A program made the translations under genes and the position numbers. 64,000 bases of DNA from Amycolatopsis viridis (GTDB taxonomy: Bacteria; Actinomycetota; Actinomycetes; Mycobacteriales; Pseudonocardiaceae), in assembly GCF_011758765.1 (NCBI RefSeq), contig NZ_JAANOU010000001.1, positions 1,984,001-2,048,000 on the forward strand, written 5' to 3'. The notes beneath the pieces were generated by a model. The model searched no databases and was not told where the DNA came from. It saw nothing but the letters and a program-made list of their open reading frames with translations. Shown piece after piece: positions 22,149-36,680 of this stretch. Each line of letters opens with the position of its first letter. Within the stretch, counting starts at the first letter, position 1.

Positions 22149-22745
22149 TCAGCCCAGGGCCGCGGTCAGCTGGTCCACCCCGGCGGCCATCAGGTCGGCG
22201 AGGTCCGCCAGGGGGTCGCGCAGCCACTGTTCGTACGCGGCCAGTGCGATCCCGAGCGCGGTGTAGGCGACCGTCTGCGGGGCCAGCGCCGACGCGGGCA
22301 CGCCGAGCCGTCCGGCGACGAATTCCGCGATCACCTGCCGCCAGTCCGCGTACCGCAAGGTCGAGTGCGCCTGGAGCGCCGGGGTGGTGAGGATCAGCTC
22401 CATCCGCTGCCGGTGCCACACCGCTTCGGCGGGGTCCACCCGGTTGAAGCGGACCAGCGCGTCCCGCAGCACGTCGGGCAGCGGGAGGTCCGGCGGGTAG
22501 GCGGCGAGCCGCTTGCGCATCCTGTCCAGCTGGCCGTCGAAGTCGCCCCACGCGATGTCGTTCTTCGACGGGAAGTAGCGGAAGAACGTGCGCCGTCCGA
22601 TGCCGGCGGCCTTCGCGATGTCGTCGATCGTGGTGCGGTCGAAGCCGCGGCTGGCGAACAACGCGAACGCCGCGTGCTCGACCTCCGCCCGCGAAGTGAT
22701 CGGCTTGCGCCCCGCGCGGGGCGCCGGATCCGCCTTTTCGGTCAT
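22149..22745 (-). CDS. mftR: Mycofactocin-system TetR regulator MftR
   Basis: A 198-residue TetR protein. The helix-turn-helix (EHAAFALFASRGFDRTTIDDIAKAAGIGRRTFFRYFPSK, as a family pattern) and FRYFPSKNDIAWGDFD are characteristic of the regulator found beside mycofactocin clusters. ATG 22745 is preferred because GGAAGAGG precedes it; a GTG at 22763 would add six residues but lacks a ribosome site. It diverges from mftA across about 85 bases that contain a palindrome. In mycobacteria MftR represses the cluster and responds to long-chain acyl-CoA; that response is not visible here. Confidence 0.85.
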   Translation of the reverse strand: MTEKADPAPRAGRKPITSRAEVEHAAFALFASRGFDRTTIDDIAKAAGIGRRTFFRYFPSKNDIAWGDFDGQLDRMRKRLAAYPPDLPLPDVLRDALVRFNRVDPAEAVWHRQRMELILTTPALQAHSTLRYADWRQVIAEFVAGRLGVPASALAPQTVAYTALGIALAAYEQWLRDPLADLADLMAAGVDQLTAALG

Positions 22746-22758
22746 CCCTCTTCCATTC

Positions 22759-22771
22759 GGCACTCGGTGCC
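22759..22771. promoter_or_regulatory. Inverted repeat GGCAC-TCG-GTGCC between mftR and mftA
   Basis: A perfect five-base inverted repeat with a three-base spacer, sitting 14 bases upstream of the mftR ATG and 60 bases upstream of mftA. Placement between the divergent genes fits an MftR operator. No defined -35/-10 pair is visible nearby; ATTATTGT just downstream may be part of a promoter. Confidence 0.45.
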
Positions 22772-22830: not shown

Positions 22831-22935
22831 ATGTCCGACGCCGAGAACGCCGCCCCCGCTGTGGAGGACACGCTCGTCGAGGAGGACCTGCTGGTCGAAG
22901 AGGTCTCCATCGACGGCATGTGCGGCGTCTACTGA
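22831..22935 (+). CDS. mftA: Mycofactocin precursor peptide MftA
   Basis: A 34-residue peptide, acidic throughout the leader and ending IDGMCGVY. The C-terminal Val-Tyr pair is the substrate that MftC decarboxylates and cross-links to give the AHDP core; the GMCG context is conserved in MftA. GAAGGGA lies seven bases before ATG 22831. It is followed immediately by mftB and mftC in the standard order. The leader is expected to be bound by MftB and later removed by MftE. Confidence 0.95.
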   Translation: MSDAENAAPAVEDTLVEEDLLVEEVSIDGMCGVY

Positions 22936-22940
22936 CCGGC

Positions 22941-23204
22941 GTGTTCGATCCGGACCGCGCCTACCGGTGCTCCCCGCGGGTCGCGTTGCGGCCGGAACCG
23001 TTCGGGGCGCTCGCCTACGACTTCGGCACCCGGAGGCTGTCGTTCCTGAAGACGAAGATCCTGGTCGAGGTGGTGCGCACGCTCGGGGACCAGCCCGACG
23101 TGCACACCACGCTCGACGCCGCCGGCGTCCCCGCCGACCAGCGCCCGGCCTACCTCGCGGCGCTGGCAGGACTGGCCGAGAACGGCACGATCGAACCGCG
23201 CTGA
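22941..23204 (+). CDS. mftB: Mycofactocin peptide chaperone MftB
   Basis: An 87-residue RRE-type (PqqD-like) peptide-binding protein starting at GTG 22941, five bases after mftA. The opening FDPDRAYRCSPRVALRPEPFGALAYDFGTRRL contains the winged-helix strands that grip the MftA leader; the C-terminal helix region reads LAALAGLAENGTIEPR. It presents MftA to the radical SAM enzyme MftC encoded 21 bases downstream. Confidence 0.92.
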   Translation: MFDPDRAYRCSPRVALRPEPFGALAYDFGTRRLSFLKTKILVEVVRTLGDQPDVHTTLDAAGVPADQRPAYLAALAGLAENGTIEPR

Positions 23205-23225
23205 ACCCACCACGAAGGGCGTGCG

Positions 23226-24437
23226 ATGAAGCTCGTCGAACACTTCAAGCAGGGGCTCACCTCGCCCATCTGCCTGACCTGGGAACTGACCTACGCCTGC
23301 AACCTCTCGTGCGTGCACTGCCTGTCCTCGTCGGGACGCCGTGACCCGCGGGAGCTGAGCACGGCGGAGTGCAAGGCCGTCATCGACGAGCTGCAGCGCA
23401 TGCAGGTCTTCTACGTCAACATCGGCGGTGGCGAACCGACCGTGCGCGCCGACTTCTGGGAGCTCGTCGAGTACGCGGTGGACCACCAGGTGGGTGTCAA
23501 GTTCTCCACCAACGGCGTGAAGCTCACCCCCGAGCGGGCCCGCTGGCTCGCCGCCAGCGACTACGTGGACGTGCAGATCTCCCTCGACGGTGCCACCGCC
23601 GAGGTCAACGACCACGTGCGCGGGCCCGGTTCCTACGACACCGCGATCCGGGCGATGCGGAACCTGAGCGACGCCGGTTTCCGCAACTTCAAGCTGTCCG
23701 TGGTCATGACCCGGCACAACGTCGGGCAGCTCGACGAGTTCAAGGCCATCGCCGACCGCTACGGCGCCCAGCTGCGCATCACGCGGCTGCGCCCGTCCGG
23801 CCGCGGCGCCGACACCTGGGACGAGCTGCACCCGACCGCCGGGCAGCAGCGGCAGCTCTACGACTGGCTGGTCGCGCACGGCGAGCAGGTCCTCACCGGC
23901 GACTCGTTCTTCCACCTCAACGCGCTCGGCTCGGACCCGCTGCCCGGTCTCAACCTGTGCGGCGCGGGCCGCGTGGTGTGCCTGATCGACCCGGTCGGCG
24001 ACGTCTACGCCTGCCCGTTCGCCATCCACGAGGAGTTCCTGGCCGGCAACGTCCGCGATGCGGGCGGGTTCGCCGGTGTGTGGCGCACCTCGGAGCTGTT
24101 CGAGCGCCTGCGCGGTCCGCAGACCGGTGGTGCGTGCACGTCGTGTTCGGCCTACGACGCCTGCCAGGGCGGGTGCATGGCGGCGAAGTTCTTCACCGGT
24201 CTGCCGCTGGACGGGCCGGATCCCGAATGCGTCCAGGGCCGGGGGGAACTGGCGCTGGCCGGCGTGGGCACGCCCGCACCGCGCTCGCACATCGACCACT
24301 CGCACTCCACGACCCGCAAGAGCCGCCAGAGCCGGAAGGTGCCGGTCAGCATCGGGTTCGGGCCGCCCGAGGCCGGCGCGCGGCCGGACCGGGCCTGCGA
24401 CACCAGCCCGCTCGCGGGGTTCCAGCCGGCGCGATGA
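23226..24437 (+). CDS. mftC: Mycofactocin radical SAM maturase MftC
   Basis: A 403-residue radical SAM/SPASM enzyme. The SAM-cluster motif is CNLSCVHC (CxxxCxxC) at about residue 22-29, followed by GGGEPTV. The SPASM region has CGAGRVVCLIDPVGDVYACPF, then CTSCSAYDACQGGC and a last Cys in PDPECVQG, enough for two auxiliary 4Fe-4S clusters. It decarboxylates the C-terminal Tyr of MftA and forms the Val-Tyr bond. A roughly 50-residue Arg/Ser/Pro-rich tail follows the SPASM domain. The stop overlaps the next start as ATGA. Confidence 0.95.
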   Translation: MKLVEHFKQGLTSPICLTWELTYACNLSCVHCLSSSGRRDPRELSTAECKAVIDELQRMQVFYVNIGGGEPTVRADFWELVEYAVDHQVGVKFSTNGVKLTPERARWLAASDYVDVQISLDGATAEVNDHVRGPGSYDTAIRAMRNLSDAGFRNFKLSVVMTRHNVGQLDEFKAIADRYGAQLRITRLRPSGRGADTWDELHPTAGQQRQLYDWLVAHGEQVLTGDSFFHLNALGSDPLPGLNLCGAGRVVCLIDPVGDVYACPFAIHEEFLAGNVRDAGGFAGVWRTSELFERLRGPQTGGACTSCSAYDACQGGCMAAKFFTGLPLDGPDPECVQGRGELALAGVGTPAPRSHIDHSHSTTRKSRQSRKVPVSIGFGPPEAGARPDRACDTSPLAGFQPAR

Positions 24438-26257
24438 CCGGGCTGACCGGCCCCGTCCGGGTCGGCGGCCACACCGCCCCGAGCCGGGTCCTCTTCGGCC
24501 CGCACGAAACCAACCTCGCCTGCGGCCGGGCGCTCGCGGACCGGCATGTCGCCTACTACCGGCGGCGCGCCGAGGGTGGCGCGGGGATCGTGGTCACCGA
24601 GACGGCCAGCGTGCACGCATCGGACTGGCCCTACGAACGCGCGCCGCTGGCCGCCGCGTGCGGACCGGGCTGGCGATCCACCGCGGACGCTTGTCGTCCA
24701 CACGGGACACTGGTGGTGGCCTCGCTGGGACACACCGGCGGGCAGGGGAGTTCGGCCTACCACCAGTCGGCGCTGTGGGCGCCGTCGCGGGTGCCGGACC
24801 CGGTGAGCCGCGAACTGCCGATGGAGATGGAAGAGCCGGAGATCAGCGCGCTGATCGCCGGGTTCCGCGACTCCGCGGCGCTGGCCGTCCAATCCGATGT
24901 GGACGGTGTGGAGATCGACGCCGGGCAGTACTCGCTGATCCGGCAGTTCTGTTCCGGGCTGACCAACCAGCGGCGCGACGCCTACGGCGACCGCGGACGG
25001 CTGCTGCGGGAGGTGCTGGCCGTGGTCCGGGCGGCCATCGGCGACCGGATCCTCGGGCTGCGCCTGGCGTGCGACGAAGGCGCCCCGTGGGCGGGGATCA
25101 CGCCGGAACAGGCGGCCGAGCTCGTGCCGGACGTGGCCGGCCTGCTGGACTACCTGGTGCCGGTGCGGGGTTCGGCGTTCGCGGACTCCCGCCCGGATCT
25201 GCATACCGGGCCGGCCTTCAACGCCGGGTTGTGCCGCAGTCTCGCCGGGCCGGTGACGACGGTGCTGCAGGGCGGTGTGGTCGACCCCGCCGACGCGGAA
25301 CGCGCACTGGCCTACGCCGGGCTGGTCGAGATGACCCGAGCGCTGATCGCCGACCCCGACCTCGTCCGGCACGTCCGCGCCGGGCGGGCGCCCCGGCCGT
25401 GCGTGCTGTGCAACCAGATGTGCCGGGTGCGGGATCCGCGCAACCCGGTCGTCAGCTGCATCGGCGAGCCGCGCAGCGGGCACGAGACGGAGGATCCCCT
25501 GGGCGGGCCGGGATCCGGTGCGGTGCTGGTGGCCGGCGGCGGACCGGCCGGGCTGGAGGCCGCCCGCGTGCTCGCGCTGCGCGGGTTCGACGTGGAGCTG
25601 ACCGAGCGGGACGACCGGCTCGGCGGCATGGTCCGGATCGCCGCGCGGGTGGCGGGCCGCGAGCGGCTCGGCCAGCTGGTGGACTGGCTGGAGGCCGAGG
25701 TTCGGCGGCTGGGCGTGCGGGTCTCGACCGGGGTGGAGACCCGCGAGCCGGACGGGCGGCCGGTGATCGTCGCGACCGGCAGTACCGCCGGGCCCCGGGA
25801 CTACGCCGTCGAGGGCGGTGCGGTGCTCGACGTGGTGACCGTGCTGGCCGGTGCCGCCCTGCCGGACGGGCCGGTTGTGGTGCACGACCCGGTCGGCGAC
25901 TGGGTCGGCGCCGGGGTCGCGGAGCTGCTGGCGGGCCGCCGTGCGGTGGCGATCGTCAGCCCGGACCCGGCGATCGCTGCCCGGACGGGCGACCTCGCCG
26001 GCGTCAACACCCGGCTGCAGCGGGCCGGGGTGACGCTGGTGAAGCGGTCCCGCCCGCGGGTGGTGCGGCGGGACCACGTGGTGGCGGAGGACGTGCACAC
26101 CGGGGCGGTGCGGGAGCTGCCGTGCGCGGTTTTGGTCCACTGTGGACATCGGTGGCCGGATCCGGCGTTGCCCGGCATCGCCGTCGGGGACGCGGTGGCG
26201 CCGCGGACGATCCACGAGGCCGTCCTGGAGGGCAGGCGCGCGGCGGTGGCGCTGTGA
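24434..26257 (+). CDS. Mycofactocin-system FadH/OYE-family oxidoreductase 1
   Basis: A 607-residue two-domain flavoprotein built like 2,4-dienoyl-CoA reductase FadH. Residues 1-330 form the old-yellow-enzyme FMN barrel; CVLCNQMC followed after eleven residues by Cys (CX2CX3CX11C) near 320-340 binds a 4Fe-4S cluster; residues 355-607 form a dinucleotide domain with VAGGGPAGLEAARVLA. It matches the protein family annotated as mycofactocin-system OYE type 1. It sits where mftD stands in mycobacterial clusters. Coupled to mftC (ATGA) and to the second OYE gene (GTGA). Its reaction is unknown; maturation or recycling of mycofactocin are both possible. Confidence 0.85.
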   Translation: MTGLTGPVRVGGHTAPSRVLFGPHETNLACGRALADRHVAYYRRRAEGGAGIVVTETASVHASDWPYERAPLAAACGPGWRSTADACRPHGTLVVASLGHTGGQGSSAYHQSALWAPSRVPDPVSRELPMEMEEPEISALIAGFRDSAALAVQSDVDGVEIDAGQYSLIRQFCSGLTNQRRDAYGDRGRLLREVLAVVRAAIGDRILGLRLACDEGAPWAGITPEQAAELVPDVAGLLDYLVPVRGSAFADSRPDLHTGPAFNAGLCRSLAGPVTTVLQGGVVDPADAERALAYAGLVEMTRALIADPDLVRHVRAGRAPRPCVLCNQMCRVRDPRNPVVSCIGEPRSGHETEDPLGGPGSGAVLVAGGGPAGLEAARVLALRGFDVELTERDDRLGGMVRIAARVAGRERLGQLVDWLEAEVRRLGVRVSTGVETREPDGRPVIVATGSTAGPRDYAVEGGAVLDVVTVLAGAALPDGPVVVHDPVGDWVGAGVAELLAGRRAVAIVSPDPAIAARTGDLAGVNTRLQRAGVTLVKRSRPRVVRRDHVVAEDVHTGAVRELPCAVLVHCGHRWPDPALPGIAVGDAVAPRTIHEAVLEGRRAAVAL

Positions 26258-28185
26258 GCCTGCTGTTCGAACCGCTGCGGCTGGGGCCGGTCGAGGTGCG
26301 CAACCGGATCGTGTTCGCCGCGCACCTGACCAACTACGCGGCCGGCAACCTGCCCACCGAGCAGCACGCCGCGTACTACGCCGCCCGTGCCGCGGGCGGT
26401 GCCGGACTGATCATCTCCGAGGAGCACGTCGTGCACCCCTCGGACTGGCCCTACGAGAAGGTGATCCACGGCTACCGGCCCGAGGTGGTGCCCGGCTACC
26501 GGCGGATCACCGGCGCGGTGCACGCACACGGTGTGCCGATCTTCGCGCAGCTCAACCACAACGGCGGTCAGGCGTGGTCGCGGTACTCGCGCCGCGTGGT
26601 GTGGGCGCCCTCGCCGGTGCCGGATCCCCTGTTCCGGGAGGTGCCCAAGGCGATGTCGCACGCGGAGATCGCCGAGGTCGTCGCCGGGTACGGCCGGGTC
26701 GCCCGGCACTGCGCCGAGGGCGGGTTCGACGGGGTGGAGATCCAGTGTTCGCAGTCCTCGCTGGTGCGCGGGTTCCTGGCGCCCGCGACGAACCTGCGGA
26801 CCGACGACTACGGCGGGTCGCTCGCGAACCGCGCGCGGATCCTGCGGGAGATCATCGGCACCGTGCGCGCGGCGATCGGGCCGTCGCGGGCGCTGGGCGT
26901 GCGGCTGTCCGGTGACGACCTGGTCGAGGGCGGTGTCACGCTCGGCGAGGCGGTCGAGGTGGCGCGGATGATCGCGCCCGGCATCGACTACCTGAACACC
27001 TCCATCGGGGTCGCGACCGCGTCGTTGTACCTGGTCGAACCGTCAATGGCGGTGCCGCGCGGGTACGCGCTGCCGGTGGCCGGGGCGTTCCGGCGGGCGG
27101 TGTCGCTGCCGGTGGTCGGCATCGGGCGGATCAAGGACCCGGCGGAGGCCGAACGCGCGCTCGCGGAGGGTCTGTGCGACCTGGTCGGGGTGGTGCGCGG
27201 GCAGATCGCGGACCCGGAGTTCGCCGGCCAGGCCCGCGCGGGCCGGCCGGTGCGCACCTGCCTGTCGTGCAACCAGGAGTGCGCCGGCCGGGTGGGGCTG
27301 AACCGGTGGCTGGGCTGCGTGGCGAACCCGCGCGCCGGGCGGGAGGCGGTGCCGTTGCCCGAGCCGGGACCGCGGCCGAAGCGGGTACTGGTCGTGGGCG
27401 GCGGCCCGGCGGGTCTCCGGGCGGCGGCCACGGCCGCCCAGCGGGGGCACCACGTGACGGTCTGCGAACGGGCGGCGTCGGTGGGCGGGCAGATCGCGCT
27501 GGCGGCCACGGCGCCCGGGCGGGCCGAGCTGGGGGACCTGGTGCGCGACCTGTCGCGCGAGTGCCGTGCGGCGGGTGCGGACGTGCGGACCGGGGTGGCG
27601 GTGACCGCAGCCCAGCTGCTGGCGGAGGCGCCGGACGCGGTCGTGCTGGCGACCGGGGCCCGCCCGGTGGTGCCCGAGTGGGCGGCGGGCCTGCCGCGGG
27701 TGGTGCACGCGCGGGACGTGCTGGGCGGGGTGTCGCCGTCGGGATCGGTGGTGGTGATCGACGAGACCGGTTTCCACCCCGCGACCTCGGTGGCGGAGCT
27801 GCTGGCGCAGCGCGGGTGCCGGGTGACGCTGTCGACACCGGCCATGGTCGTGGGACAGGACCTGGGGACCACGCTGGACCGCGAGCTGTTCGGGCGGCGG
27901 GCGCACGCGCTCGGGGTGGCCGAGTCGACGGACGAAATGGTGCTGGATGCCGCCGCGGCGGAGGATGGGGGCGTGGTGTTGCGGGTGCTCAGGCACACGA
28001 CCGGCGAGGTCCGGCAGGTCCGCTGCGACTGGGTGGTGTGCGCGACGCACCAGGCACCGGAGGATTCGCTGTGGCACGCGCTGCGCGACGCGCCCTTCCC
28101 GGTCCTGCGGGCGGGTGATTGCCTGGCCCCGCGGCGCGCGCACGCCGCGGTGGTGGAGGGGCACCGGGCGGGGGTGTCGTTGTGA
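26254..28185 (+). CDS. Mycofactocin-system FadH/OYE-family oxidoreductase 2
   Basis: A 643-residue paralogue of the preceding protein. The FMN barrel begins LFEPLRLGPVEVRNRIVFAAHLTNYA; the iron-sulfur motif is CLSCNQEC-x11-C near residue 335-355; the C-terminal dinucleotide domain has VVGGGPAGLRAAATAA. It resembles the mycofactocin OYE type 2 family more closely than FadH itself. Two adjacent, divergent copies suggest they form a heteromer or act in sequence. GTG 26254 overlaps the stop of OYE 1. A gap of 76 bases follows before the SDR gene. Confidence 0.85.
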   Translation: MSLLFEPLRLGPVEVRNRIVFAAHLTNYAAGNLPTEQHAAYYAARAAGGAGLIISEEHVVHPSDWPYEKVIHGYRPEVVPGYRRITGAVHAHGVPIFAQLNHNGGQAWSRYSRRVVWAPSPVPDPLFREVPKAMSHAEIAEVVAGYGRVARHCAEGGFDGVEIQCSQSSLVRGFLAPATNLRTDDYGGSLANRARILREIIGTVRAAIGPSRALGVRLSGDDLVEGGVTLGEAVEVARMIAPGIDYLNTSIGVATASLYLVEPSMAVPRGYALPVAGAFRRAVSLPVVGIGRIKDPAEAERALAEGLCDLVGVVRGQIADPEFAGQARAGRPVRTCLSCNQECAGRVGLNRWLGCVANPRAGREAVPLPEPGPRPKRVLVVGGGPAGLRAAATAAQRGHHVTVCERAASVGGQIALAATAPGRAELGDLVRDLSRECRAAGADVRTGVAVTAAQLLAEAPDAVVLATGARPVVPEWAAGLPRVVHARDVLGGVSPSGSVVVIDETGFHPATSVAELLAQRGCRVTLSTPAMVVGQDLGTTLDRELFGRRAHALGVAESTDEMVLDAAAAEDGGVVLRVLRHTTGEVRQVRCDWVVCATHQAPEDSLWHALRDAPFPVLRAGDCLAPRRAHAAVVEGHRAGVSL

Positions 28186-28261
28186 ACGGCCCGGCCGGGT
28201 GCGGTGGGGTGGTTCCGCGATGCGGGCTGAGCTGGCACGCTCCGGGCGTGGAGATGATCAG

Positions 28262-29047
28262 GTGACCGCGCGGGTGGCCGTGGTGACCGGGGCGGCCCGG
28301 GGCATCGGCGCGGCCGTCGTGCACCGGCTCGCCGACGAGGGCTGGCGCGTGGTCGCGGTGGACATCGCCGCGGACCTGCCGGGCGTGGCCTACCCGCTCG
28401 GGCGGCGTGAGCAGCTCGCCGGGATCGCCGCGAAGTGGCCCGGACAGGTGATCGACGTCGTGGCCGACGTGCGCGACCAGCGGGCGCTCGACGAGGCGGT
28501 CCGCGTCGCCGAGCGCGAGTTCGGCGGGCTGGACGCGGCCGTCGCCGCGGCCGCGGTGATGGCCGGCGGGCGGCCGCTGTGGGAAACGACCGATGCCGAA
28601 TGGGAATCGCTGTTCGGCACCGGGGTGGACGGCGTCTTCCACCTCGCCCGCGCGGCCGTGCCGGCCCTGCTGCGCCGCCCCCAGCCGCGCAGCGGGCGCT
28701 TCGTCGCGCTCGCCTCCGCCGCGGCCCACACCGGGTTGTGGCGGCTGGCCGGCTACAACGCGGCCAAGCACGCCGTCACCGGATTGGTCCGCGGTCTCGC
28801 CACGGACCTGCGCGGCACCGGCGTCACCGCGACGGCGGTGTCGCCCGGATCGACCCGCACCCCGATGCTCGCGGCCACCGCCGCGTTGTACGAGCTGGAC
28901 GACGTCGAGGAGTTCGCCCGGCACCAGCTCGCCGAGCGGCTGCTCGAACCCGAGGAGGTGGCGGCCGCGGTGTGCTGGCTCTGCGGACCCGACGCGAGCG
29001 CGATCACCGGCACGGTGGTGCACGCGGACGGGGGGTTCACGGCATGA
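28262..29047 (+). CDS. Mycofactocin-coupled short-chain dehydrogenase
   Basis: A 261-residue SDR with TGAARGIG at the N-terminus and YNAAK as the catalytic Tyr-x3-Lys. Instead of NNAG it has VAAAAVM, and there is an insert after the cofactor motif (residues about 40-60), features of the mycofactocin-associated SDR subfamilies whose NAD is bound non-exchangeably and re-oxidised by mycofactocin. GTG 28262 has GGAG eight bases upstream; ATG 28220 would add 14 residues. It overlaps mftF by ATGA, placing it inside the maturation operon. Its alcohol substrate is unknown. Confidence 0.8.
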   Translation: MTARVAVVTGAARGIGAAVVHRLADEGWRVVAVDIAADLPGVAYPLGRREQLAGIAAKWPGQVIDVVADVRDQRALDEAVRVAEREFGGLDAAVAAAAVMAGGRPLWETTDAEWESLFGTGVDGVFHLARAAVPALLRRPQPRSGRFVALASAAAHTGLWRLAGYNAAKHAVTGLVRGLATDLRGTGVTATAVSPGSTRTPMLAATAALYELDDVEEFARHQLAERLLEPEEVAAAVCWLCGPDASAITGTVVHADGGFTA

Positions 29048-30456
29048 CGGTGCTGCGCGTGGATCCCTCGACGAAGGCGGTCGCCGGGGGGCGGGTGCTC
29101 GTCGGCGGTTCGCCGCTGCGGGTCATCACCCTGTCCGCCACCGGCGCCCGGCTGTACGCCGCGTGGGCGGCCGGCGCCGAGGTCGGGGACATGCCCCACC
29201 ACCGGCGGCTCGCCGAGAAACTCGTCCTCGCCGGCATGGTCCACCCCGGCTACGCCGAGGCCACGCTGACCCCGCGGGACGTCACCGTCGTCGTGCCCGT
29301 GCGCGACCACGCCGACCGGCTCGCCGCGCTCCTGCCGTGCCTGGCCGAGGTCCGCGAGACCCTGGTGATCGACGACGGGTCGGCCGTGCCGGTCCCGCAC
29401 GCCGTCGACCGCCACCCGGTGCCGCGCGGCCCCGCCGCGGCCCGCAACACCGGCTGGCGCAAGGTCACCACCGAGCTGGTCGCCTTCCTCGACGCCGACA
29501 CCCGGCCCCGGCCGGGCTGGCTCCCACCGTTGCTCGCGCAGTTCGAGGACCCCGCGGTGGTGGCCGTCGCGCCGCGGGTGCGCAGCGCGCCCGGCGACGG
29601 GGCGCTGGCCCGCTACGAACGCCACGAGTCCGCTTTGGACATGGGTTGCGTCCCGGCTCAGGTGCGCCCGCGCGGGCGCATCACCTACCTGCCCACGGCC
29701 GCGCTCGTCGTCCGCACGTCGGCGCTGCGGGCGATCCACGGGTTCGACGAGGACCTGCGCTTCGGTGAGGACGTCGACCTGATCTGGCGGCTCGTCGACG
29801 CGGGCGGGTCGGTGCGGTACGAGCCGCGGTCGGAAGTGGTGCACGAACCCCGCACCACCTGGCGGGCCTGGCTGACGCAGCGCTACAGCTACGGCACCTC
29901 CGCCGCCCCGCTGGCGCGCCGGCACGGCCGCACCGCGCTCGCACCGGTCCGGGTGTCCGGCTGGACGGCCCTGGCGTGGCTCGCGCTCGCCGCCGGGCGT
30001 CCGAAGACCGCGGTGGCGATCGCGCTCGCCACCGCGGCCCTGCTTCCGCGCAAGCTGGCACCCCTCGGCGTGCCGGCGGGCGAGGCGCTGGGCATCGCCC
30101 TGCGCGGGCACGTCGCGGCCGGGCGTTTCCTCGCCGGTGCGCTCACCGGAGCGTGGGGTCCCGCGGCGGTCCCGCTGCTCGCGCTGACCCGGCGCGGCCG
30201 CCGCGTCCTCGCCCTGGCCTACGCCCGGCACCTGCTGGACTGGGTGCGGACCCGGCCGGACCTCGACCCGCCCCGGTGGCTGCTGGCGCGCGCCGCCGAC
30301 GACCTCGCCTACGGCGCCGGGGTGTGGCGCGGGTGCCTGCGCGAGGGCGAACCGGGGCCGCTCGTCCCCGACCTGTCGAACTGGCCGGCCCGCCGGCCGC
30401 GACGTGCCGCCGCCGATCCGCCGCGCGGTGCCGCGCCGGCCGGGACCAGACCGTGA
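29044..30456 (+). CDS. mftF: Mycofactocin glycosyltransferase MftF
   Basis: A 470-residue family-2 glycosyltransferase. The N-terminal 75 residues form an unrelated small domain; the GT-A core runs about 78-300 with VTVVVPVRD, IDDGS, the metal-binding FLDADTRPRPGW and GEDVDLIWRL. C-terminal hydrophobic segments follow. MftF adds beta-1,4-glucose units to premycofactocin to give the oligoglycosylated cofactor. The gene is coupled to the SDR upstream and to mftE downstream (GTGA). The tail after residue 440 is Arg/Pro/Ala-rich. Confidence 0.92.
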   Translation: MTVLRVDPSTKAVAGGRVLVGGSPLRVITLSATGARLYAAWAAGAEVGDMPHHRRLAEKLVLAGMVHPGYAEATLTPRDVTVVVPVRDHADRLAALLPCLAEVRETLVIDDGSAVPVPHAVDRHPVPRGPAAARNTGWRKVTTELVAFLDADTRPRPGWLPPLLAQFEDPAVVAVAPRVRSAPGDGALARYERHESALDMGCVPAQVRPRGRITYLPTAALVVRTSALRAIHGFDEDLRFGEDVDLIWRLVDAGGSVRYEPRSEVVHEPRTTWRAWLTQRYSYGTSAAPLARRHGRTALAPVRVSGWTALAWLALAAGRPKTAVAIALATAALLPRKLAPLGVPAGEALGIALRGHVAAGRFLAGALTGAWGPAAVPLLALTRRGRRVLALAYARHLLDWVRTRPDLDPPRWLLARAADDLAYGAGVWRGCLREGEPGPLVPDLSNWPARRPRRAAADPPRGAAPAGTRP

Positions 30457-31130
30457 ACCTCGCCGATCTCGCCTGGCCCGAACTGGGGGAGCGCCCCCTC
30501 CTGGCGGTGCCGCTGGGCGCCACCGAACAGCACGGCCCGCACCTGCCGTACACGGTGGACACCGAGATCGCGGTCGAGCTGTGCCGCCGCCTCGGCCGGG
30601 CGCGGCCGGAGATCGTCGTGGCACCCGCGATGCCGTTCGGATCCAGCGGGGAGCACGCGGGTTTTCCGGGCACGCTGTCGATCGGCCAGGAAGCCACCGA
30701 ACTCGTCCTGGTCGAGCTGGTGCGCTCCGCGGACGCCTTCGCCGGGGTGCTCCTGGTGTCCGCGCACGGCGGCAACGCGATGCCGGTGCGCCGCGCGGTG
30801 CGGACACTGCGGGCCGAGGGGCGGAACGTGCGTGCCTGGTCGCCGGACGGCCCCGCCGGTGACACCCACGCCGGGCGGCTGGAGACGTCGGTGATGCTGG
30901 CGGTCCGGCCGGAAGCCGTGCGCACCAACCGTTTCCAGGCCGGCGTGACGCGTCCGCTGCCCGAGCTGATGGGGCGGTTGCGCGGCGAAGGCGTGCGCGG
31001 GGTCAGCCCGAACGGGGTGCTGGGCGACCCGGCCGGGGCGAGCGCGGAAGCGGGGCGCGCCACCCTCGACCGATGGACGGACGGTCTACTTGACGCTGCC
31101 GCATCGCTGGCCGGAGATGGCATGATGTAG
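30453..31130 (+). CDS. mftE: Mycofactocin creatininase-family peptidase MftE
   Basis: A 225-residue creatininase-family metallopeptidase, somewhat short for the family. Metal-ligand blocks are GATEQHGPHLP near residue 23, FGSSGEHAGFPGT and SAHGGNAMP. MftE cleaves the modified C-terminal dipeptide from MftA to release AHDP. It starts with GTG inside the mftF stop. The order here is A-B-C-OYE1-OYE2-SDR-F-E, so E is displaced to the end rather than directly after C or D. Confidence 0.92.
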   Translation: MNLADLAWPELGERPLLAVPLGATEQHGPHLPYTVDTEIAVELCRRLGRARPEIVVAPAMPFGSSGEHAGFPGTLSIGQEATELVLVELVRSADAFAGVLLVSAHGGNAMPVRRAVRTLRAEGRNVRAWSPDGPAGDTHAGRLETSVMLAVRPEAVRTNRFQAGVTRPLPELMGRLRGEGVRGVSPNGVLGDPAGASAEAGRATLDRWTDGLLDAAASLAGDGMM

Positions 31131-31171
31131 CCGTCGGCGGATGAGACCCCTGTCACAAAGAGGTGATCGGC

Positions 31172-32287
31172 GTGAAGACCAAGGCCGCAGTCCTGCACTC
31201 CGCGGGAAAGCCGTTCGAGATCGAGGAACTCGAGCTCGACGGGCCGCGTGAGGGTGAGGTTCTGATCAAGTACACGGCCGCCGGGCTGTGCCACTCCGAC
31301 CTGCACCTGATCGACAACGATCTCGTGCCGCGGTTCCCGATCGTGGGCGGGCACGAGGGCGCCGGCATCATCGAGGACGTCGGCCCCGGCGTGACCAAGG
31401 TCCAGCCGGGCGACCACGTCGTGTGCTCGTTCATCCCGAACTGCGGGACCTGCCGCTACTGCGCCACCGGCCGGTCCAACCTGTGCGACATGGGCGCCAC
31501 GATCCTCAACGGGAACCTGCCCGACGGCTCGTTCCGCTTCCACCGCGGCGGCACCGACTACGGCGCCATGTGCATGCTGGGCACGTTCAGCGAGCGCGCG
31601 ACGATCTCGCAGCACTCCGTGGTCAAGGTGGACGACTGGCTGCCGCTGGAGACCGCGGTGCTCGTGGGCTGCGGAGTGCCGACCGGCTGGGCGTCGGCGA
31701 ACTACGCCGGCGGTGTCCGGGCCGGTGACACGTGCGTGGTGTACGGCATCGGCGGGATCGGCATCAACGCGGTGCAGGGCGCGGCGCACGCCGGTGCCGC
31801 CAACGTGATCGCGGTGGACCCGGTGGAGTTCAAGCGCGAGAAGGCGCTCGAACTCGGTGCCACGCACGCTTTCGCCACCGCCGCCGAGGCCGCCGAGAAG
31901 GTGACGGAGCTGACCTGGGGCCAGATGGCCGACCAGGCGCTGATCACCGTCGGGACGGTGGACGAGCAGGTCGTGACGGACGCGTTCAACGTGATCGGCA
32001 AGGGCGGCACGGTCGTGATCACCGGGTTGGCCAACCCGGAGAAGCTGACGGTGCACCTGTCCGGCGGCGTGATGACGTTGTTCGAGAAGACGGTCAAGGG
32101 CACGCTGTTCGGGTCGGCCAACCCGCAGTACGACATCGTCCGGCTGCTGCGCCTGTACCAGGCGGGGCACGTGAAGCTGGACGAGCTGGTGACGAAGCGC
32201 TACACCCTGGACGAGGTCAACGAGGGCTACCAGGACCTGCGCGACGGGAAGAACATCCGCGGCGTGATCATGCACTCCGCGGACTGA
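31172..32287 (+). CDS. NDMA-dependent (mycofactocin-linked) alcohol dehydrogenase
   Basis: A 371-residue zinc medium-chain alcohol dehydrogenase. Catalytic zinc ligands lie in GLCHSDLH and GGHEGAG; the structural zinc lobe is CGTCRYC-x7-C; the nucleotide fold is VYGIGGIGINAVQ. It closely resembles the Rxyl_3153-type family whose NADH is tightly bound and needs an artificial acceptor (NDMA) in vitro and mycofactocin in vivo. GTG 31172 follows AGAGG by eight bases; GTG 31163 overlaps that site. It lies 41 bases after mftE and ahead of a strong terminator, so it may be read with the maturation genes. Substrate is probably a primary alcohol. Confidence 0.9.
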   Translation: MKTKAAVLHSAGKPFEIEELELDGPREGEVLIKYTAAGLCHSDLHLIDNDLVPRFPIVGGHEGAGIIEDVGPGVTKVQPGDHVVCSFIPNCGTCRYCATGRSNLCDMGATILNGNLPDGSFRFHRGGTDYGAMCMLGTFSERATISQHSVVKVDDWLPLETAVLVGCGVPTGWASANYAGGVRAGDTCVVYGIGGIGINAVQGAAHAGAANVIAVDPVEFKREKALELGATHAFATAAEAAEKVTELTWGQMADQALITVGTVDEQVVTDAFNVIGKGGTVVITGLANPEKLTVHLSGGVMTLFEKTVKGTLFGSANPQYDIVRLLRLYQAGHVKLDELVTKRYTLDEVNEGYQDLRDGKNIRGVIMHSAD

Positions 32288-32298
32288 GACGCGGTCCG

Positions 32299-32333
32299 GG
32301 TGCGGGCGGAGGCCGGTGGTCTCCGCCCGCACC
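32299..32333 (+). terminator. Strong hairpin terminator after the alcohol dehydrogenase
   Basis: A perfect 13-base stem (GGTGCGGGCGGAG with its complement) closes a nine-base loop, starting 11 bases after the stop codon. There is no U-run, as is common for actinobacterial terminators. It separates the mycofactocin unit from the molybdenum enzyme genes. Confidence 0.8.
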
Positions 32334-32454
32334 GCTGTCCGGGGCTGGACCGTTCGGCCGAGCGCTGTACGACGTTCGGCTGTGTCTGCGTCACAGTTGT
32401 GTGGCACGCGGCTGTCATCCCGTCACAGAGATGCGCAGGCACGGCTACTCATCG

Positions 32455-32484
32455 TTGACCCTGCCGGAGCCCGATTCCTATCGT
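32455..32484 (+). promoter_or_regulatory. Sigma-A-like promoter for the molybdenum enzyme genes
   Basis: TTGACC and TATCGT are separated by 18 bases, about 35 bases before the ATG at 32521. Two copies of GTCACAG (32390-32396 and 32422-32428, 32 bases apart) lie upstream on the same helical face and could be activator sites. Function inferred from position. Confidence 0.5.
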
Positions 32485-32520
32485 GACCGCGATCAACGTG
32501 GATCTCGGAAGGACTTCTCG

Positions 32521-34845
32521 ATGGCGCATCAACGGCGATCGCCCGCGCCCGGTGACGGGGCCCCGGCCCTGGAACGGCGCCGGTTCCTCGGTTATCTCCT
32601 CGCCGCGCCCACCCTGGCGGTCGCGGCGAAGCTCGGCGGTGATCTCGCCGCCCCCGCACCGGCCGGCGCCGCGATCCCCACCCTCCCCGGCCCGGCCGAC
32701 GTCCTGGACCTCGGCGACGCCCTCACGCTCGCCGCGATGCCGACCTCCGGCCTCATCGCGATCCAGGTCAACCGCGACGACACCGTGTCCTTCGCGGTGC
32801 CCCGCGCCGAGGTCGGCCAGGGCATCACGACCACGGTCGCGATGCTCATCGCCGAGGAGATGGACCTGCCGCTGAGCAAGGTCGGCGTCAACCTCGCCGA
32901 CGCCCGCCCGGAACTGGTGTTCAACCAGCTCACCGGCGGGTCGAACTCGGTGCGCTCGCTGTACAACCCGGTGCGCACCGCGGCGGCGATCGCCCGCGCC
33001 CGCCTGCTGGCCACCGCGGCCGCGCAGTGGAAGGTCGACGCTGCCACGCTCACCGCCCGCGACGGCGTCATCCGCTCCGCCTCCGGGCGGAGCGCCAGCT
33101 ACGGTTCCCTGGCCGAGGCCGCCGCCGCCGCGCGCACCGAGGAGGTTTCCGCCACCCTCAAGAAGACCTCCGAGTTCCGCATCATCGGCAAGCCCACCAC
33201 CCGCATCGACGCGCTCGACGCGGTCACCGGGCGCAAGCGCTTCACGATGGACCTCCAGGTCCCGGGCGCGAAGCCGACCATGGTCTGCCGCCCGCCGACG
33301 ATCAACGGCACGGTGCGGTCGGTCGCCAACCTCGCCGAGGTCAAGGCGATGCCCGGCGTCACCGACGTCGTCACCGTCTCCAGCGGCGTCGCCGTGCGGG
33401 CGGACACGTTCGGCCAGTGCATCGACGCGGTCCGCGCGCTCAAGGTGGACTGGGGACCGGGCACAGTGGACGGTGAGTCCGACGCGACCGTCGAGGCGAA
33501 GCTGCGGGCCGCCGCGCTGCCGCTGGCCGTGCCGCCGGTGCTGACGCAGTCGATCGACGCCGAGTTCGTGTTCGCCTTCGCCAGCAACAGCGCACTGGAG
33601 ACCAACTGCGCGATCGCCGACGTGCGGGCCGACCGGGCCGAGATCTGGTCCGGCCTCAAGTCGCCGATCGTGACGCAGGAGAAGGTCGCCGCGATGCTCG
33701 GCCTGCCGGTCCCCGCGGTCAAGGTGCACGTCGTCACCGGCGGCGGTTCGTTCGGGCGCAAGCTGTTCGGCGACGCCGCGCTGGAGGCCGCGGAGATCTC
33801 GAAGAAGATCGGCAAGCCGGTCAAGCTCATGTGGCACCGCGCCGACGACGCCCGGCACGGCCGCACCCACCCGATGTGCCTGTCCCGCGTGCGGGTCAAC
33901 CATGCCCTGGGCAACGTGGTCAGCTACGAGCAGCGGCACACCAGCGTCACCACCGACTTCGGTCACGGCCTCGGCGAGATCCTCACCGCCGTCGCGGCGA
34001 AGCTGCCGGTCGGCGACGTCGGGTTCTCCCAGACCGTGTTCATGCTGTCCACCTCGATGCCCTACAACTTCGGTGCCACCACGCAGCTGCTCAACGAGGT
34101 GCCGCTGAAGTTCCACACCGCCAGCATGCGCAACGTGTACTCGCCCAATGTGGTCTGCGCGCGCGAGCTGATCGTCGACCAGCTCGCCGCGAAGATGGGC
34201 CAGGACCCGTTGACGTTCCGGCGGAACTTCCTCAAGGACGACCGCATCCGCAAGGTCCTCGACAAGGTCGCCGAGGTCGGCAACTGGGGCCGGAAGATGC
34301 CCGCCGGCACCGCCCAGGGCATCGCGCTGCACCACGAGTACAAGAGCGTCAGCGCGGTCCTGATGGAGATCGACTGCCGGCCGGAGACCGTCAACCGCAA
34401 GATCCGCAACGGCGTCGCCGGGCCGCGCGTCACCAAGGCGGTCGCGGTCGTGGACGCCGGCCTGCCGATTAACCCGAAGGGCCTGGAGGCGCAGACGATC
34501 GGCTGCGTCAACGACGGCATCGCGCTCGCGCTCACCTCGAGCCTGCACATCGACCAGGGCCTGCCGCTGGAAGCGAGCTGGGACAACTACTTCTACACCC
34601 GGCAGTGGAACACGCCGCCGGAGATCGAGGTCGTGGTCCTGCCCGCCACCACCGGTGAGCCCGGCGGCGCGGGCGAGCTCGCGGTCGCCAGCTCGTTCGC
34701 CGCGGCCGCCTGCGCCTACGGCCGCGCGGTGGGGAAGATGCCGACGCGCTTCCCGATCAACCACGGCACGCTGAGCTTCGAGCCGAAGCCGAAGGTGCCG
34801 CCGGTGCCCGAATCGCCGGTCGACGGCCTGGCCCACACCTTCTGA
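32521..34845 (+). CDS. Tat-exported molybdenum hydroxylase large subunit, IorB-like
   Basis: A 774-residue xanthine-oxidase-family molybdopterin subunit. The N-terminus carries ERRRFLGYLLAAPTLAVAA, a twin-arginine signal, so the folded enzyme is probably exported. Two Mo-binding halves follow, with VGQGITT, GGGSFGRK and GEPGGAGELA near the C-terminus. It resembles isoquinoline 1-oxidoreductase beta and periplasmic aldehyde dehydrogenases, which lack an FAD subunit and pass electrons to a cytochrome. GGAAGGA precedes ATG 32521. Location downstream of an alcohol dehydrogenase suggests an aldehyde substrate; this is inferred. No cytochrome gene is adjacent. Confidence 0.85.
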   Translation: MAHQRRSPAPGDGAPALERRRFLGYLLAAPTLAVAAKLGGDLAAPAPAGAAIPTLPGPADVLDLGDALTLAAMPTSGLIAIQVNRDDTVSFAVPRAEVGQGITTTVAMLIAEEMDLPLSKVGVNLADARPELVFNQLTGGSNSVRSLYNPVRTAAAIARARLLATAAAQWKVDAATLTARDGVIRSASGRSASYGSLAEAAAAARTEEVSATLKKTSEFRIIGKPTTRIDALDAVTGRKRFTMDLQVPGAKPTMVCRPPTINGTVRSVANLAEVKAMPGVTDVVTVSSGVAVRADTFGQCIDAVRALKVDWGPGTVDGESDATVEAKLRAAALPLAVPPVLTQSIDAEFVFAFASNSALETNCAIADVRADRAEIWSGLKSPIVTQEKVAAMLGLPVPAVKVHVVTGGGSFGRKLFGDAALEAAEISKKIGKPVKLMWHRADDARHGRTHPMCLSRVRVNHALGNVVSYEQRHTSVTTDFGHGLGEILTAVAAKLPVGDVGFSQTVFMLSTSMPYNFGATTQLLNEVPLKFHTASMRNVYSPNVVCARELIVDQLAAKMGQDPLTFRRNFLKDDRIRKVLDKVAEVGNWGRKMPAGTAQGIALHHEYKSVSAVLMEIDCRPETVNRKIRNGVAGPRVTKAVAVVDAGLPINPKGLEAQTIGCVNDGIALALTSSLHIDQGLPLEASWDNYFYTRQWNTPPEIEVVVLPATTGEPGGAGELAVASSFAAAACAYGRAVGKMPTRFPINHGTLSFEPKPKVPPVPESPVDGLAHTF

Positions 34846-34855
34846 GGAGACTTCG

Positions 34856-35335
34856 TTGTCCCAACACACTTTCACGGTCAACGGCAAGCGGGTCACGGTC
34901 GACGCCGACGACAAGGTCCGGTTGCTCTGGGTGCTGCGTGACCTGCTCGGCATCACCGGTCCGAAGTACGGCTGCGGTATCAACGTGTGCAAGGCGTGCA
35001 CGAGCCACATCAACGGCAAGGCGTTCAACCCGTGCTCGGTGCCGGTGTCGGCGATCGGGCCGGACGACGAGATCACCACCATCGAAGGGCTGGCCGACCC
35101 GGAGACCGGCGAACTGCACCCGATGCAGCAGGCGTGGCTCGACCGGGACGTCGCGCAGTGCGGCTACTGCCAGCCCGGTCAGATCATGGCGGCCATCGCG
35201 AAGGTCAGGCAGGCCCGCGCGGAGGGGCGCGAGATCAGCGACGCCGACTTCGACGAGATCCGCAACATCTGCCGCTGCGGTACCTACTCGCGCATCCGGG
35301 AGGCGGTGCGGACCGCGGCGGCCGAGATGAAGTGA
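34856..35335 (+). CDS. 2Fe-2S subunit of the molybdenum hydroxylase, IorA-like
   Basis: A 159-residue protein with the two 2Fe-2S clusters of this family. The N-terminal plant-type cluster is GCGINVCKACTSHI with a fourth Cys in NPCSV; the C-terminal cluster is CGYCQPGQ and CRCGTY. It has no signal peptide and would be co-exported with the Tat-bearing partner. The start is TTG 34856, decided by GAGGAGA five bases upstream and by the fact that no ATG or GTG precedes the domain. The gene begins ten bases after the large-subunit stop. Confidence 0.9.
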   Translation: MSQHTFTVNGKRVTVDADDKVRLLWVLRDLLGITGPKYGCGINVCKACTSHINGKAFNPCSVPVSAIGPDDEITTIEGLADPETGELHPMQQAWLDRDVAQCGYCQPGQIMAAIAKVRQARAEGREISDADFDEIRNICRCGTYSRIREAVRTAAAEMK

Positions 35336-35354
35336 TCGTCCGCGGTTACGCCGG

Positions 35355-35390
35355 CAAAGCCCCGCATCTCTCCGCAGATGCGGGGCTTTG
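35355..35390 (+). terminator. Perfect 15-base hairpin terminator
   Basis: CAAAGCCCCGCATCT and its exact complement flank a six-base loop, 19 bases after the 2Fe-2S subunit stop. The stem ends in a T-run on the plus strand, making it the most conventional terminator of the window. Confidence 0.88.
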
Positions 35391-35468
35391 TGCTGCGGTT
35401 GCGCACAGTTGGACACTTTCGTGTTAGATGTCCACTCGCGAGCCCTCGACGAGGAGGACGGACATCTC

Positions 35469-36680
35469 ATGAGGTACACGGGCGCCGACCCCGCGGTGGC
35501 CGGCCTGGCCGGCCGCGCCCTGACGCGGTTGCCGGAGATGACCAAGGCGACCTACGAGCAGATTCTCGGGGAGATGACCGTCTACCGCGAGGAGCGGTTC
35601 GTCTCCCACGACCAGTTGTTCGCCTCCTGCCGCGACAACCTCCAGTTCCTGGTCCGCGCCCTGTCCGAGCCCGGCGCACCCGACTTGTCCCAGGCACGCG
35701 CGACCGGCCGCGACCGAGCGCTGGCCGGCGCCCCGCTGCCGGAGTTGCTGCGGGCGTTCCGGATCGGGTTCACCGAGGTGTGGCAGTGCTTCGTCGAGCT
35801 GACCACGCCCGCGCAGGACGTCGCCACGCTGGTCGCGGCGACCACCGCCATCTGGGACCTGATGGACGACTACACCGAGGACCTGACCTCGACCTACCGC
35901 GCGACCATGGCCGAGATCAGCCGGACCCGGCAGAACCGCAGGCTGGCGCTGGTGGAGGCGCTGTTCGCCGGGGGCAGCGCCACCGAGGGCACGCTGTGGG
36001 ACATCGCGCGGATGCTCGACCTGCCCCTGGAGGGCACGTTCGTCGTGGTCGCGGCGGAGGCGCCGGGGCTGGGCCAGGAGGCGTTGCCGCTGATCGAGAC
36101 CCGCTTGCGGGAGCGGCACCACGCCTCGGCCTGGCGGCTCACGCCCGAGCTGCAGATCGGGGTGGTGTCGGTGCGCGACGCGGACGGGGTGCTGGAACTG
36201 CTGCGGGACAACCCGCGCGCGCGAGTAGGGGTCAGCCCGGTGTTCGCCGGCCTCGGCGACACGGCCAGGGCGCTGCACCTGGCCCGCGTGGCGATGAACA
36301 GCCTGCCGCCCGGGACGAAGGACGTCGCGCGGTTCCAGGAGTCACCACTGGCCGGGCTCGTCGCGAGCGACCCGGAGGCGTCCGCGCAACTGGCCGGTCA
36401 GGTGCTGCGGCCGATCCTGGAGCTGCCCGGCGAGGAGGGCAACGTGCTGCTGCTGACGCTGCGCGCCTGGTTCGACTGCGGCGGGTCCACCAAGCAGATC
36501 GCCGAGCGGGTCTACTGCCACCCGAACACCGTGCGGCACCGGGTGAAGCGGATCACCGACGTGCTCGGCCGGTCGCTGACCGACCCGGCGGACATCGCGG
36601 AGCTGGGTGCGGCGCTGCGGGCGTTGTCCATGTTCGGCGACCGCGCCCGCAGAGCCGTGCGTACCGGACACCGGACCTAG
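35469..36680 (+). CDS. PucR/CdaR-family transcriptional regulator
   Basis: A 403-residue regulator. Residues 1-160 form a helical sensory domain, the middle has a degenerate GGDEF-like segment, and the C-terminal PucR helix-turn-helix reads LRAWFDCGGSTKQIAERV and YCHPNTVRHRVKRI. ATG 35469 is chosen for GAGGAGGA upstream; GTG codons further up overlap the terminator hairpin. PucR regulators usually activate catabolic genes in response to substrate. The molybdenum enzyme pair upstream is the nearest candidate target. The gene converges on and slightly overlaps the DUF4235 gene. Confidence 0.82.
   Translation: MRYTGADPAVAGLAGRALTRLPEMTKATYEQILGEMTVYREERFVSHDQLFASCRDNLQFLVRALSEPGAPDLSQARATGRDRALAGAPLPELLRAFRIGFTEVWQCFVELTTPAQDVATLVAATTAIWDLMDDYTEDLTSTYRATMAEISRTRQNRRLALVEALFAGGSATEGTLWDIARMLDLPLEGTFVVVAAEAPGLGQEALPLIETRLRERHHASAWRLTPELQIGVVSVRDADGVLELLRDNPRARVGVSPVFAGLGDTARALHLARVAMNSLPPGTKDVARFQESPLAGLVASDPEASAQLAGQVLRPILELPGEEGNVLLLTLRAWFDCGGSTKQIAERVYCHPNTVRHRVKRITDVLGRSLTDPADIAELGAALRALSMFGDRARRAVRTGHRT

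Follow-up and report, generated by a model that had tools for sequence, protein, structure and literature searches.

The 64,000-nucleotide stretch of the Amycolatopsis viridis genome analyzed here (the window) contains a complete mycofactocin operon in which two iron-sulfur flavoproteins of the FadH/old yellow enzyme (OYE) type, OYE1 and OYE2, fill the slot directly after mftC. Every gene of the operon was called with a curated family model, and every match was above that model's own curated cut-off:

22149-22763, minus strand: mftR, TetR-type regulator of the mycofactocin system (TIGR03968, 279.1 bits, cut-off 224.9)
22831-22935, plus strand: mftA, precursor peptide with C-terminal SIDGMCGVY (TIGR03969, 50.5 bits, cut-off 25)
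22920-23204, plus strand: mftB, peptide chaperone, probable GTG start at 22920 (TIGR03967, 105.2 bits, cut-off 33)
23226-24437, plus strand: mftC, radical SAM maturase (TIGR03962, 660.3 bits, cut-off 265)
24434-26257, plus strand: OYE1, FadH/OYE-type flavin mononucleotide (FMN) / 4Fe-4S flavoprotein 1 (TIGR03996, 774.7 bits, cut-off 627.9)
26254-28185, plus strand: OYE2, FadH/OYE-type FMN / 4Fe-4S flavoprotein 2 (TIGR03997, 937.1 bits, cut-off 793.15)
28262-29047, plus strand: mycofactocin-coupled short-chain dehydrogenase/reductase (SDR), probable GTG start at 28262 (TIGR04504, 403.9 bits, cut-off 250)
29044-30456, plus strand: mftF, glycosyltransferase (TIGR03965, 437.9 bits, cut-off 280)
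30453-31130, plus strand: mftE, creatininase-type peptidase (TIGR03964, 260 bits, cut-off 172)
31163-32287, plus strand: NDMA-dependent alcohol dehydrogenase of the mycofactocin-linked family (TIGR03989, 563.5 bits, cut-off 440)

A precursor ending in IDGMCGVY together with MftB, MftC, MftE, and MftF identifies the locus as a mycofactocin cluster. Four-base stop/start overlaps at four junctions (mftC/OYE1, OYE1/OYE2, SDR/mftF, and mftF/mftE) and the curated models confirm the initial annotation of a coupled OYE pair between mftC and mftF. That annotation had bounded the cluster at 22831 and 31130; mftR and the alcohol dehydrogenase lie just outside. The nearest named relative of the OYE2 protein, from Amycolatopsis granulosa, is 95% identical to it. 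No mftD was found between mftC and mftF, and the window cluster carries the OYE pair only, with no etf/fix cassette beside it.

mftD is missing from its slot in the operon but not from the genome. MftD converts 3-amino-5-[(p-hydroxyphenyl)methyl]-4,4-dimethyl-2-pyrrolidinone (AHDP) to premycofactocin, as stated in passages of PMC11162802, and its family, TIGR03966, is absent from some species with a mycofactocin cluster but present in most, as stated in part of the first description of the system (PMC3023750). The initial annotation had proposed either that the pair supplies the missing oxidative step or that mftD lies elsewhere and the pair has another role, and had named beforehand an MftD homologue elsewhere in the genome as a finding that would overturn the idea. 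We found such a gene. When TIGR03966 was run against the strain's single-contig assembly (5.68 Mb), there were seven matches, and the one above the cut-off of 470.85 was a canonical, intact mftD with 734.3 bits (C1:3968575-3969726), a complete open reading frame (ORF) of 393 amino acids approximately 1.96 Mb from mftC. We therefore rejected the view of this genome as one without mftD. With mftD present elsewhere, the first proposal loses its premise for this strain, and the second fits the facts.

The displaced mftD looks solitary because a tblastn search of the surrounding 17 kb with the cluster proteins gave, besides mftD itself, only a 36% match to the SDR approximately 5 kb away, and because the closest ORFs to which Pfam domains could be assigned, encoding a STAS-domain protein and an MFS transporter, lie on the opposite strand. 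Likewise, only weak alcohol-dehydrogenase matches accompanied the displaced mftD in 13 other OYE1 genomes (12-13 kb read in each, around one copy where a genome has two). We conclude that the operon in this genome was rearranged, with OYE1-OYE2 in the mftD slot and a solitary mftD elsewhere. The premycofactocin synthase of this strain is probably still MftD, and the pair is probably a second route or a diverged remnant.

In a sample of the order, mftD was unlinked from mftC in every genome that had both mftD and OYE1. We used one drawn set of 150 genomes (the order sample, which overlaps with a sample of family f10 described below). mftC was found in 76 genomes and mftD in 67, all among the 76 and all above the cut-off. 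OYE1 was found in 21 (20 above the cut-off; in the remaining one, G124, it is split between contigs) and OYE2 in 22, of which the six below the cut-off are from five genomes of family f16 and from G014. OYE1 lies directly after mftC in the clusters read; in families f13 and f16, OYE2 is further downstream, behind SDR genes, except in two f13 clusters without a matched SDR. Among genomes with mftD, the gene was within 10 kb of mftC in none of the 14 with OYE1 and in 39 of the 53 without it, counts in which closely related genomes are not independent. When not near mftC, mftD was on another contig in 6 genomes with OYE1 and in 13 without. The difference persisted when labels were permuted family by family, in the four families with both kinds of genome, counting an absent mftD as not near (0/17 near with OYE1 versus 13/22 without; 6.5e-5). 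In f16 alone the contrast was weak (0/6 versus 4/11, p = 0.24) because mftD is often unlinked there even without OYE1.

Two separate mftD matches above the cut-off were present in each of G085, G092, G113, and G147. G034 also has two, and its mftC and MftG matches are doubled as well, probably from a repeated contig end. G014, which belongs to the window's family, encodes an OYE2-like protein of 654.5 bits (cut-off 793.15; C195:12765-14738), and no mftC was found in that genome.

One lineage appears to do without MftD. Nine mftC genomes of the order sample lack mftD: seven belong to family f10 and have OYE1, and the other two, G005 (86%) and G117 (81%), are assemblies of low completeness. Family f10 consists mostly of uncultured actinomycetes whose proteins are deposited as Frankiales or Mycobacteriales bins. 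Twelve of the 24 f10 genomes searched have mftC, and among these mftD was above the cut-off in 0/7 with OYE1 (completeness 84-100%) versus 4/5 without, the fifth being the incomplete G117. The best mftD-family match in G009, an OYE1 genome listed as 100% complete, was 147 bits, similar to f10 genomes without mftC. An additional f10 genome, G150 (75% complete), has OYE1, only a fragment of mftC at the end of a contig, and a best mftD-family match of 255 bits, below the cut-off. MftA ends in SIDGMCGVY in all seven mftD-less clusters whose mftA region was read, and an SDR gene adjoins the mftD-less clusters; the one SDR tested is mycofactocin-coupled (348.8 bits, cut-off 250). The preserved MftA end and the coupled SDR suggest continued synthesis of an active redox cofactor. 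The anti-correlation between the OYE pair and mftD that the initial annotation had asked about thus holds for linkage and for presence within f10, but does not extend to a general mutual exclusion, as mftD is kept in 14 of the 21 OYE1 genomes.

The exchange of mftD for the OYE pair was in place. In genus g28 of f10 the gene order is C-D-E-SDR-F (L088), and in genera g37 and g17 it is C-OYE1-OYE2-etfA-fixC-fixX-etfB-E-SDR-F (L040, L042-L044); four genomes have the latter complete on a single contig, and the other four show it in fragments at the ends of contigs. In f1, the window's family, the order A-B-C-D-SDR-F-E (L086; G046) is that of the window with mftD replacing the pair. The internal SDR gene and the terminal mftE, which the initial annotation had listed along with the pair, are therefore real features of the window operon but not tied to OYE1-OYE2. 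A tree of 44 MftC proteins placed f1 proteins from both kinds of cluster together (support 100/98) and did the same for f10 (85/99, under the 95/80 mark), so the exchange probably occurred within the f1 and f10 lineages. The OYE1 label requires 9 changes on this tree, of which well-supported branches force at least 4.

Loss of mftD coincided with a larger cassette, OYE1-OYE2-etfA-fixC-fixX-etfB. Neighborhoods were read for 38 OYE1 genomes (21 from the order sample, G150, and 16 from outside the order), and in 21 of these the pair heads this cassette. Within the order sample, the full cassette was present in 8 of 21, a lone C-terminal domain of the alpha subunit of electron-transfer flavoprotein (ETF) in 4, and neither in 9, including G064, where the stretch read stops at OYE2 and a cassette could follow; it is counted here as without the cassette. 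mftD was absent from 7 of the 8 cassette genomes versus 0 of the 13 OYE1 genomes without the full cassette. In two clusters tested, EtfA (FixB) scored 449.2 and 413.3 bits with the NCBIfam model mft_etfA (cut-off 240) and EtfB (FixA) scored 338 and 302.6 bits with mft_etfB (cut-off 200; the two models are NF038209 and TIGR04503). The lone domains follow OYE2 in four f13 clusters, with no other cassette genes in the stretch. Each is the C-terminal FAD-binding domain of ETF-alpha, of approximately 90-127 residues (L058:16461-16757, L059:16687-16953, L060:4027-4401, and L062:4506-4862), and the two that were scored had 128 and 132 bits, under the mft_etfA cut-off.

The cassette also occurs outside the order. 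In the 16 outside genomes (two candidates scored per genome, a set used only for locating OYE1 loci), the cassette followed OYE2 in 12 and mftC was beside OYE1 in 3; mftD was not found in the stretch read of any of them. In ten genomes of family f32 (L103-L113) the pair is beside an MftR gene (three MftR proteins tested, all above the MftR cut-off), six of the ten have etfA-fixC-fixX-etfB, and four have an unlinked mftD. A scan of named genomes for the end of MftA, biased against high-GC actinomycetes by requiring GAT and TAA, gave 13 loci on short stretches. Eleven were labeled Actinomycetota or a member of it, one of them a bin labeled Bifidobacterium breve (label unchecked), and the other two were a cyanobacterial and a Chloroflexi bin. 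mftD is in the cluster at four of the loci (L096, L098, L099, and L101), OYE1 follows mftA at one (L091), and the short stretches at the other eight show neither. At L091 (7160-7996), from an uncultured bog actinomycete, OYE1 comes directly after mftA, where mftB and mftC would be expected. Overall, the pair and its cassette appear to define a modular variation on mycofactocin metabolism, and a single lineage apparently manages without MftD.

OYE1 and OYE2 have the architecture of trimethylamine dehydrogenase (TMADH) and histamine dehydrogenase. They match the group containing FadH, naphthoyl-CoA reductase, histamine dehydrogenase, TMADH, and Pno (6-hydroxypseudooxynicotine dehydrogenase of Agrobacterium) over much or all of their length, and Pfam domains and fold matches indicate an FMN barrel, 4Fe-4S cysteines, and a nucleotide-binding domain. 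The predicted structures had mean pLDDT values of 80.6 and 82.2, with low values around the iron-sulfur loop. Full-length structural matches to both proteins include histamine dehydrogenase and TMADH; those to OYE1 also include naphthoyl-CoA reductase and FadH, with histamine dehydrogenase first by E-value and FadH highest by TM-score among the full-length matches. The four cysteines of the 4Fe-4S motif are invariant in 16 aligned OYE2 proteins. The window OYE1 has its 4Fe-4S cysteines; a relative, OYE1 of G125, has Ser at the second Cys. The proteins resemble FadH, the 2,4-dienoyl-CoA reductase of Escherichia coli, in domain layout and in sequence over most of its length. They differ from it at Tyr166 and His252, which we take to be its catalytic residues: Tyr166 aligns to Ser in both window proteins, and at the position of His252 OYE2 has Ala and OYE1 lacks an aligned His. 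These replacements speak against ene reduction.

Based on the genes, the folds, and analogy, we infer that OYE1 and OYE2 may form a single FMN / 4Fe-4S dehydrogenase that would oxidize a compound of the mycofactocin pathway and pass the electrons to ETF, from there to FixC/FixX, and then to the quinone pool. The reaction of MftD uses oxygen. In the f10 genomes without mftD, the pair would most likely deaminate AHDP oxidatively to premycofactocin, acting as an ETF-linked dehydrogenase in the role of the oxidase MftD. We favor this assignment tentatively, rating it somewhat short of an even chance. A broader and more speculative extension is that the cassette is a second, oxygen-independent premycofactocin synthase, an amine dehydrogenase linked to the respiratory chain; it would have pushed MftD out of the operon repeatedly and, in one actinomycete family, taken its place entirely. 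There is a precedent in Pno, which, according to passages of PMC7688666, contains FMN and 4Fe-4S, is related to histamine and trimethylamine dehydrogenases, deaminates its substrate, and uses EtfAB, with etfAB and euo in its gene cluster. As far as those passages go, such an enzyme can deaminate its substrate and use an ETF encoded alongside. The likeness to Pno, histamine dehydrogenase, and TMADH is in the full-length fold and the FMN and 4Fe-4S centers, and in genes for ETF and an ETF:quinone oxidoreductase-like protein that adjoin the pair in relatives, although not in the window. Unlike these enzymes, the OYE system has two proteins rather than one, and its catalytic Tyr-His-Asp set is not intact.

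Several observations weigh against the proposal that the pair replaces MftD. In alignments with histamine dehydrogenase (3k30), the Tyr-His-Asp set, presumably the catalytic set of the TMADH and histamine dehydrogenase active site, is reduced in f10 OYE2 to the His (Tyr to Gln, Asp to Thr), and in the window OYE2 the His, near residue 167, is also Gln. The nearest folds to OYE2 are reductases (naphthoyl-CoA reductase and FadH) and not amine dehydrogenases. The genomes that keep both OYE1 and mftD include one, G125, with the cassette. Finally, no mftA, mftB, or mftC was found in the stretches read from the ten f32 genomes, in which mftC was not searched for elsewhere; this would suit recycling of the cofactor equally. 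The OYE2 His is kept in all 20 cassette genomes aligned (G313 was left out), in the four genomes of f13, and in four cassette-free genomes of f32, and is replaced by Gln in the window, G138, G041, and six f16 genomes, so the window pair differs from the cassette type.

The main rival is that the pair re-oxidizes mycofactocinol and sends the electrons to ETF and the quinone pool, which is the job of MftG in mycobacteria; the pair's place in the mftD slot would then reflect operon rearrangement, and genomes without mftD would use another enzyme. We regard this as a real possibility, with perhaps one chance in three of being correct. ETF and FixC/FixX point to the quinone pool as the electron acceptor, and passages of PMC11778925 propose that MftG feeds the respiratory chain and state that approximately 25% of mftC genomes lack MftG, its substitute being an open question there. 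The f32 cassettes, beside MftR and away from mftABC, also suit this role. We scored MftG with TIGR03970 (above the cut-off in 40/150 genomes) or TIGR04542 (2/150, both kept as MftG-positive, although passages of PMC11778925 restrict this model to Gordonia); the third published model, NF038210, was not included. MftG was above the cut-off in none of the eight cassette genomes of the order sample, a count that is not independent of ancestry because near relatives in f10 and f1 without OYE1 also lack MftG. Furthermore, OYE1 and MftG were unrelated overall (MftG in 10/21 genomes with OYE1 versus 32/55 without), and mycofactocinol re-oxidation leaves unexplained why, two incomplete assemblies apart, mftD is missing only beside the cassette. 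Where mftD is gone, we read replacement of MftD as the likeliest reaction.

We think it unlikely that the pair is a catabolic or xenobiotic reductase or demethylase that is mycofactocin-regulated and does not act on the cofactor at all. The folds nearest to OYE2 fit such a role, and some relatives are named dimethylglycine demethylation protein or N-methylproline demethylase, but the replacement of Tyr166 and His252 argues against it, as do the pair's linkage to mftC, mftE, and mftF and its exchange with mftD in the same slot. It is more improbable still that the exchange is accidental, with mftD drifting from the operon and its absence from f10 due to gaps in assembly or detection or to another lactate-dehydrogenase-like enzyme. 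mftD does drift without OYE1: 14 of 53 such genomes had it outside the 10 kb around mftC (on another contig in 13), and f16, with 11 genomes of this kind, accounts for 7 of the 14. Also, the f10 assemblies are mostly fragmented and contain lactate-dehydrogenase-like matches below the cut-off, the highest being that in G150. However, the pattern stands when stratified by family, the best match in G009, listed as complete, does not exceed the 152 bits of G044, in which no mftC was found, and chance loss is unlikely for seven of seven genomes at 84-100% completeness.

Clusters without mftD but with the OYE2 family have already been published for Saccharopolyspora. Passages of PMC11162802 (BGCFlow) describe mycofactocin-like clusters there with mft genes, no mftD in the cluster, a TIGR03997 protein, and the MftA core IDGMCGVY, and report that S. 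erythraea produces methylated mycofactocin. Our clusters share those features; here mftD is also located in trans and the cassette and an mftD-less lineage are described, whereas those passages do not mention mftD elsewhere, OYE1, or ETF/Fix. The window proteins belong to the NCBIfam families mycofact_OYE_1 and mycofact_OYE_2, and these model names, like those of the mft_etf models, state an association with mycofactocin but no reaction and no link to mftD loss. MftD occupies in relatives the slot that the pair has here but is of an unrelated family, the lactate-dehydrogenase-like FMN enzymes. In searches of the open literature on mycofactocin, no paper listed joined the OYE pair, the ETF cassette, and mftD in its title or abstract opening, and those that combined mycofactocin with ETF listed no paper.

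These results correct a claim that could be made for many clusters: the lack of mftD in a cluster is not its lack in the genome. They also name a lineage from which mftD truly seems absent, with the other pathway genes retained. With the f10 genomes, two questions become testable: by what route premycofactocin forms in the absence of MftD, and what stands in for MftG in the quarter of mycofactocin-producing bacteria without it. Mycofactocin synthesis could proceed without oxygen if the pair is an ETF-linked dehydrogenase of AHDP.

The window also encodes, further along from the NDMA-type alcohol dehydrogenase (downstream; region 31732-36680), a molybdenum-hydroxylase-like large subunit and its 2Fe-2S subunit (34856-35335), and these proteins could oxidize an aldehyde that the alcohol dehydrogenase produces. 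An ORF at 35388-36680 has weak matches to CdaR-type regulators.

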